A stretch of 44,541 nt of DNA from a virus, in the IMG/VR virus record IMGVR_UViG_3300010399_000015, positions 1-44,541 of that record. The stretch is one strand, 5' to 3'. Under the pieces are notes generated by a model. That model was not told where the DNA came from, searched no databases, and saw nothing but the letters and a program-made list of their open reading frames with translations. The position numbers were made by a program, and so were the translations under genes. Positions 7,086-8,742 of the stretch are shown in pieces. Numbering within the stretch: position 1 is the first letter of the stretch; each line of letters opens with the position of its first letter.

Positions 7086-8742
7086 ATGGCGATGCCGTTT
7101 GACGGTACTACCTATGGCTTTGGCGTAGCTGCCGGCGTAGGGGCGAACCGTGAGGATCTGTTGGATCTTATTTCCAACATTGATCCCTACGATACCCCGT
7201 TTGTCACGTCCGCGCCGAAGGTCAAGGCCAACGCAGTTCTTCACCAGTGGCTCACCGACACGCTGCCAGCCACGAGCACGGCCGGCCTGAACGACGGTGA
7301 CGATTTCGGAGTCGGCACGGCGACCACCCGTCCGGCGCGTCTTACGAACCAATGCCAGATCTTCCGTAAGGACATCATTGTTTCGGAGACGCAGCGTGCG
7401 GTGGACGCAGCGGGCTTCAGAGACGCTTTCGAATTGGTGGGCGTCTAAAAAGATGGCCATGTGCGGGAACTCCGAGCATACTAGGGTACTCGACAAGGTC
7501 GAGTTAAAATCCCGAGTTGCGGACAATCCGCAGGAAAGGCCCGAATTGGGAATCCTCAGAGACTTAACGCCATCCCCTAAGCGTAAGAGAATTGGTAACA
7601 CTAAGTTAGCCTATGTGGCTGGAATCCTGGACGGTGAGGGGCACTTCGTTGCGATGTGGTGCGCGAAGCGGCCTAATGGAGTTCGGTATCCAAATATTCG
7701 GGTAGCGATCACCAACACCAATACAATTCTTCTAAAACATTTGAAGAAATTGTTTGGTGGAACTGTCCAGAAGGCGGGGAAGAATGACCTTAGTAGGCTC
7801 CAATGCTATTACTGGCGTCCGGAGAATACTAAGGAGTTCCTCAAACTGATGAAGCCCTATGTGATGCTGAAGAGACGCCAACTTGAAGTTGCGTTGGCTT
7901 TCTACAGTCTTCCATATGGTTCCACAGAGAAAAAGAACCGCCTAGCCGCCAAAATCAGTGTTATCAATCGATCTCGCTCAGGAGAAGATAAAGTCCAAGT
8001 AGCGTAGCGATACGCTAGCGTACTGTACCAGTACGAGCTCATGAAGGCCATGCGTGCCATTGCCCGAAACATCGAAGTCACGATTTTCGTGGGCAACGGT
8101 AACGCGACGGCGGGTCCGACGACCTCGACGGGTGCCTCGGCGACGGTCCGGCAGATGGCGAACCTTCAAAACTTCCTGAATGTTACCGCCAATGCTGGCA
8201 CGTATCCGGCGATGCCCACCTCGACGGCGAACCCGAAGACGGACGCCTTCACGGAGCTTTTCGCCGTGGCTTCTTCGTCTGCCGGCATCTTGACCGTCAC
8301 GATGTTCAATGACGCGCTCGAGCAGGCTTACGACAACGGCGGAAACCCGGAGCAGGTGTTTGTCTCGCCGAAGATCAAGCGCCAGGTCTCTCTCTTCACC
8401 GCGACGGGCCAGAACCGGAACATCGCGGCGGTCGAGAAGAAGCTGGTGGCGGCCATGGATCTGTACTTCAGCGACTTCGGCCTCATCGAGGTCGTGCTGG
8501 ATCGGTGGCTTCCGGAAGCGACGAACACGGTCACCACGACGGCCGCCTCGGACTGCCGCGGAAATATGTTCTTCCTCGAGCGGGCCAAGAACCGCCTTGC
8601 GTGGCTTCGGCCGATGCAGCACACGCTCATCGGGAAGCGCGGCGACTCGGTTGGCGGGATCGTCCTGGGCGAATTGACCCTGGAGTGTCTCGCGCCGGCT
8701 GCGAACGTGCGACTCGCTGGCGTGCAGAACAAGACCAGCTAG
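7086..8742 (+). CDS. Major capsid protein, DUF5309/HK97-like, split by a group I intron: join(7086..7427, 8026..8742)
   Basis: Exon 1 (114 codons) has the family start pattern REDLLDLISNIDPYDTPF, the QIFRKDIIVSETQRAVDAAG segment and ends ...FRDA. Exon 2 continues YQYELMKAMRAIARNIEV and runs to TAG 8740-8742. Joined, the protein is 352 residues and recreates the conserved A-Y-Q site. Unspliced message would stop at TAA 7446-7448 after 120 residues, so splicing is needed for a full shell protein. Exon 2 contains the MFNDALEQAYDNGGNPEQVFVSP region typical of the A-domain. AGGAG lies 11 nt before the ATG. The scaffold gene is just upstream and a strong hairpin follows the stop. Confidence 0.92.
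7428..8025 (+). ncRNA. Group I self-splicing intron in the major capsid gene
   Basis: 598 nt. P1: exon AGACGCT (7421-7427) pairs with internal guide GGCGTCT (7440-7446), with the last exon U paired to G7440. P10: 3' exon TACCAGT (8026-8032) pairs with ATTGGTG (7433-7439), directly next to the guide. P3: GATGGC 7452-7457 with GCCATC 7569-7574. P4: TGCGG 7462-7466 with CCGCA 7528-7532 (P and Q elements). P7: GACTT 7561-7565 (R element) with AAGTC 7991-7995 (S element AAGATAAAGTCC). A 7-bp hairpin with GCGA tetraloop (8000-8017) is a P9 element; a 7-bp hairpin at 7489-7505 belongs to P5/P6. The intron ends in G8025 as required. The coding insert lies mainly in the P8 region. Confidence 0.95.
7453..8007 (+). 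CDS. Intron-encoded LAGLIDADG homing endonuclease
   Basis: A single LAGLIDADG-type motif, AGILDGEGHF, follows KLAYV, with the acidic Asp/Glu of the active site, then a beta-rich saddle (YPNIRVAITNTNTILLKHLKKLFGG) and helices. It probably acts as a homodimer and cleaves the intronless capsid gene. The open frame has ATG at 7453; a TTG at 7546 has a better ribosome site (AGGAAAGG) and would give a 153-residue protein closer to usual single-motif size. Either start makes the coding region overlap the ribozyme core, and the stop TAG (8005-8007) sits in the P9 hairpin. Confidence 0.88.
   Translation: MAMCGNSEHTRVLDKVELKSRVADNPQERPELGILRDLTPSPKRKRIGNTKLAYVAGILDGEGHFVAMWCAKRPNGVRYPNIRVAITNTNTILLKHLKKLFGGTVQKAGKNDLSRLQCYYWRPENTKEFLKLMKPYVMLKRRQLEVALAFYSLPYGSTEKKNRLAAKISVINRSRSGEDKVQVA

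Follow-up and report, generated by a model that had tools for sequence, protein, structure and literature searches.

Several viruses are known to carry introns in their capsid genes. Closest to the case described here is the mycobacteriophage LittleE, whose major capsid gene contains an intron, the splicing of which has been shown by RT-PCR and protein sequencing (PMC3706429). The same paper cites the lactococcal phage Tuc2009 for an intron in a capsid gene. Among viruses of eukaryotes, many introns are present in the capsid genes of Faustovirus (PMC7290515) and of mirusviruses (PMC12768974). Introns in phage capsid genes are thus already known. Concerning SU10/DUF5309 capsid genes, no report of an intron was found in the literature that we searched, which covered few subscription journals, and a single phage capsid gene with three or four group I introns may not have been described before.

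The stretch of DNA that we analysed (the window) is a 44,541-base IMG/VR virus record with SU10-like portal, terminase and capsid genes; all features of the window given below lie on the + strand. The capsid open reading frame (ORF) starts at 7086, runs into a stop at 7448 and resumes from 8026. Joining 7086-7427 to 8026-8742, with the junction at 7427/8026, gave a single frame of 352 amino acids that matched SU10_MCP (PF17236, formerly DUF5309) with an E-value of 1.7e-69 and 235 bits, against a curated cut-off of 24.1, in agreement with the capsid type and length proposed in an earlier sequence-only reading. Exon 1 (7086..7427, 114 codons from an ATG, with AGGAG upstream at about 7071) and exon 2 (8026..8742, stop TAG at 8740-8742) also matched PF17236 separately (5.2e-23 and 2.2e-38, respectively). 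Two relatives with uninterrupted capsid genes, L003 and L004, encode proteins 74-77% identical to that of the window. Across the intron site L004 reads GATGCT^TACCAG, which is the joined reading of the window except for one third-position change. This precise empty site, together with the restored frame, bears out the boundaries 7428-8025 and the A/YQ restored at the junction, both of which had been predicted. The differences between the window and L004 fell on third codon positions in 62 of 108 cases in exon 1 and 107 of 170 in exon 2; the comparison set for this bias comprised L003, L004 and L008. As both exons differ from their relatives mainly at third positions, the capsid gene is not decaying. 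Among the matches listed from isolates, the capsid gene was nearly always in one uninterrupted place, and the few remaining matches were partial or in two pieces, in divergent genes. A search of genome contigs revealed no capsid relatives. An estimate of the prevalence of intron-split genes from the best 80 matches was set aside, as best matches favour intact genes.

The 598-nt insertion (7428..8025) was recognized as a group I intron in a covariance search, as had been claimed. Rfam RF00028 matched 7418-8017 over its full length (model 1-253 of 253) with 39.9 bits and an E-value of 1.5e-8 (901 nt searched); in a search of the whole window the E-value was 7.2e-7, and this was the sole RNA-family match there. 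The score falls below the curated gathering score of 50, and a default Rfam scan therefore shows nothing. P1 (7422..7445) is formed by exon bases 7422-7427 (GACGCU) and the guide at 7440-7445 (GGCGUC), with U.G at the splice site, and the P10 strand UGGUG (7435..7439) pairs with UACCA at 8026-8030 in exon 2. The 5′ part of the catalytic core (7452..7574), comprising P3-P6 and the 5′ strand of P7, was obtained as an RNAalifold consensus: P3 (7452-7457/7569-7574, GAUGGC/GCCAUC), P4 (7463-7467/7527-7531), P5 with side helices, and P6 (7532-7535/7553-7556). P7 pairs GACUU at 7561-7565 with AAGUC at 7991-7995, the latter within the S element (7987..7996) of the RF00028 alignment, and P9 (8000..8017) is a 7-bp stem (UAGCGUA/UACGCUA) with a GCGA (GNRA) loop. 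P1, P10, P3, P7 and P9, all of them anticipated in the sequence-only reading, pair directly without a mismatch, and the last intron base, 8025, is G. In a splice-site search, 7427/8026 scored highest among the in-frame joins that leave a U ahead of the intron and a G as its last base. An in-frame stop, TAA at 7446-7448, directly follows P1, consistent with the earlier view that the shell protein would depend on splicing. We noticed similar in-frame stops about 20 nt or less past the 5′ splice site in L016 (1907-1909) and L023, and likewise in some introns of L048 and L089; such stops would exclude ribosomes from the ribozyme core.

Homologous introns in related capsid genes had been missed in the first reading. 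A capsid-protein alignment scan gave 29 loci, three of which were interrupted. L016 and L034, on separate contigs, carry the same 594-nt intron after capsid codon 36 (codons 36/37), which scored only 19 bits against RF00028 in L016, and L023 carries a 608-nt intron in capsid codon 12 (RF00028 E-value 2.7e-6). The L016 and L023 introns share about 75% identity with the window core over 114-136 nt and contain, in the same loop as in the window, LAGLIDADG ORFs 32-33% identical to its own. Two further homologous introns are present in L166. Relatives of the window intron have become established at different positions of related capsid genes. In L166, a 34-nt frame-breaking insert (2795-2828, +) separates NVD from PWDTP in the capsid gene, directly upstream of a full intron, with P1-like (GUGGAU/GUCCAC) and P10-like (AAGG/CCUU) pairings; it is perhaps the remnant of a deleted intron. 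We also observed an intron of the same lineage at L084 (2990-3130, −; 88 bits to model R1), upstream of a phrog_283 ORF, a major head protein of non-SU10 type. The lineage may have jumped between unrelated capsid genes. As to the claim that the intron occupies a conserved site, the surrounding coding sequence is indeed conserved, but none of the other introns found shares the exact window position. Identity with an intron site in L089 is not claimed, as the profile alignment places the two about two codons apart.

The fold was further examined for compensatory changes, with a covariance model built from three introns and pairs counted on six. In P3-P6, two-sided changes were found in 19 of 31 pairs among the six introns, a count reached in none of 500 shuffles; this alignment was fitted to the model, to the advantage of the modelled structure. 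No such fitting was applied to the P9 alignment, in which two-sided changes were present in 6 of 7 pairs among four introns, with the GCGA loop invariant. Sliding-partner controls destroyed both signals, leaving values far below the real ones.

The earlier reading of the intron had also overlooked an ORF in the P8 loop (7546..8007), which carries a single motif, AGILDGEG, and matches phrog_5046 (1.7e-18). This LAGLIDADG homing endonuclease ORF lies between the P8 strands, overlaps the 3′ core and has its TAG stop inside P9. Its start is probably the TTG at 7546, preceded by AGGAAAGG at 7532-7539. Pfam LAGLIDADG_1 gave a weak match (18.7 bits, below the cut-off of 23.1). On the other hand, a profile made from 35 relatives matched I-MsoI and I-CreI with E-values of 1e-23 to 1e-10 (1.3e-23 for I-MsoI). 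An AlphaFold model from the alignment of the 35 relatives reached a pLDDT of 89.9, and Foldseek matched it to I-CreI structures with a probability of 1.00 and a TM-score of about 0.7; a single-sequence model (pLDDT 41) was discarded. The window ORF thus encodes a single-motif LAGLIDADG endonuclease with the I-CreI fold. As such an enzyme is encoded in its P8 loop, the intron is probably mobile. The PHROG label of phrog_5046 is ‘HNH endonuclease’, although the family matches this and other single-motif LAGLIDADG endonucleases, and the profile and fold matches to I-MsoI and I-CreI make the label misleading. No close relatives of the endonuclease were found in viral contigs, and a search of INPHARED gave one distant match. 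Most of the related LAGLIDADG ORFs (L155-L203) had no recognizable adjacent core of the window intron type. The window, L016 and L023 all have AGGAAAG followed downstream by a GTG or TTG start that lies between P6 and P7. The ribosome site of the endonuclease may thus overlap P6, in which case translation of the enzyme and splicing would be mutually exclusive. A palindromic homing site was looked for at the window junction but not found, with only 4 of 11 positions in agreement. At the L016 insertion site (1887-1906 joined to 2501-2520), a pseudo-palindrome matched at 9 of 11, within the top 0.2% of positions. Its centre coincides exactly with the splice junction, as that of a target of a dimeric LAGLIDADG enzyme should.

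Taking these results together, we consider it highly probable (roughly 0.94) that the 598-nt insertion between codons 114 and 115 is a mobile group I intron, that it splices and restores the capsid, and that its endonuclease drives homing. In the folded transcript, the 3′ end of exon 1 would pair with the internal guide (P1, with U.G), and guanosine attack followed by exon ligation would release the intron and restore the 352-residue frame. Without splicing, translation from exon 1 would end at the stop codon that lies 18 nt beyond the splice site and yield no more than a 120-residue fragment. Since hundreds of copies of the shell protein are needed, any failure in splicing would have a direct cost in virions. 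The endonuclease, presumed to act as a dimer of the I-CreI/I-MsoI kind, would cleave capsid genes that lack the intron, close to the insertion site, and during co-infection the intron would be copied into the cut gene. The RNA almost certainly removes itself; splicing in vivo, DNA cleavage and homing we infer from sequence features.

Among other explanations, the least improbable, though still a slight chance, is that the insertion is dead and does not splice, so that this contig carries a broken capsid gene, or one whose two pieces serve as separate proteins. Exon 1 alone does form a 120-residue ORF, and an ATG is present within exon 2 at 8041; yet the core helices are intact and covarying, the frame is restored exactly with both exons under coding constraint, and similar insertions recur in unrelated samples with intact flanking frames. 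The window is a metagenomic contig, and an assembler might have joined a foreign intron into the capsid gene. This is very improbable, as the boundaries are exactly spliceable, the intron pairs with just these exons in P1 and P10, and similar insertions occur in other samples, the L016 intron itself in two contigs (L016 and L034). An intein, a group II intron or translational bypassing could each restore a reading frame, but we give them hardly any credence, since the 598-nt insert shifts the frame and contains an in-frame stop at 7446, which is incompatible with an intein, no RNA family other than group I matches within it, and known bypass gaps are much shorter.

More distant SU10 capsid genes, found with a capsid HMM, a splice-site search and Rfam, were interrupted several times, with two to four Rfam-confirmed introns of about 240-260 nt each: four in L048, three in L089 and L143, and two in L054, L124 and L142. 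In L048 (328-2500, +), five exons are separated by group I introns of 247, 252, 257 and 247 nt (60-88 bits each), whose total of 1003 nt exceeds the coding sequence (325 codons). The joined exons encode complete SU10_MCP proteins of 325 amino acids in L048 and 322 in L089. Several sites are shared, given here by window residue: T^D at 57/58 (L048, L089), A^K at 120 (L048, L054, L136), V^S at 261, phase 2 (L048, L089, L054), and D^F at 264 (L124, L143). The 261-site intron of L054 is absent from L136, and a 256-nt intron of L143 is absent from L124, each with a precise empty site, in pairs whose DNA is about 92-96% identical; presence and absence of the window intron were compared only with relatives whose proteins are 74-77% identical. 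These patterns indicate that the SU10-type phage capsid family is recurrently invaded by multiple introns. A core pattern derived from two capsid introns retrieved 120 contig stretches with 75 non-redundant cores. The commonest flanking ORFs were DNA polymerase (phrog_1252, 16) and major head proteins (SU10_MCP, 8; Phage_capsid, 5), a ratio biased by the origin of the pattern in capsid introns.

A wider interpretation can be put forward tentatively, with the odds rather against it: SU10-type capsid genes of environmental phages may be a standing target of group I introns, up to four per gene, gained and lost between near-identical phages, with endonucleases that, in co-infection, cut the shell gene of rivals and bias which allele survives, thereby repaying the intron. 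Capsid genes are widely used phage markers, and split ones may escape ordinary gene callers. In a capsid family whose members have from none to four introns, and in which some close relatives differ by a single intron, one can test what phage introns cost and what benefit they bring.

The comparison with known systems places the window as follows. I-CreI, I-MsoI and I-CvuI share the single-motif fold with the window endonuclease at about 20% sequence identity, and I-CreI is itself encoded in a group I intron. Gp210 of phage PhiPA3 (PMC11620839) is, as here, an intron-encoded endonuclease in a phage gene; in that system, interference with a co-infecting phage has been shown. In Faustovirus and mirusviruses, the major capsid gene is also a recurrent target of introns, with gain and loss and with endonuclease ORFs, but these are eukaryotic viruses, the mirusvirus introns are spliceosomal, and Faustovirus has 13-18 introns with GIY-YIG ORFs. 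LittleE differs in its intron of about 820 nt, called ‘most likely’ group I by its authors, with the ORF on the opposite strand, whereas the window has a sense-strand ORF in the P8 loop, an SU10-type capsid and inferred splicing. In both, the capsid gene of a tailed phage is interrupted by several hundred nucleotides that follow a U and end in G, related phages are uninterrupted, and the intron carries an I-CreI-related LAGLIDADG ORF (PMC3706429).
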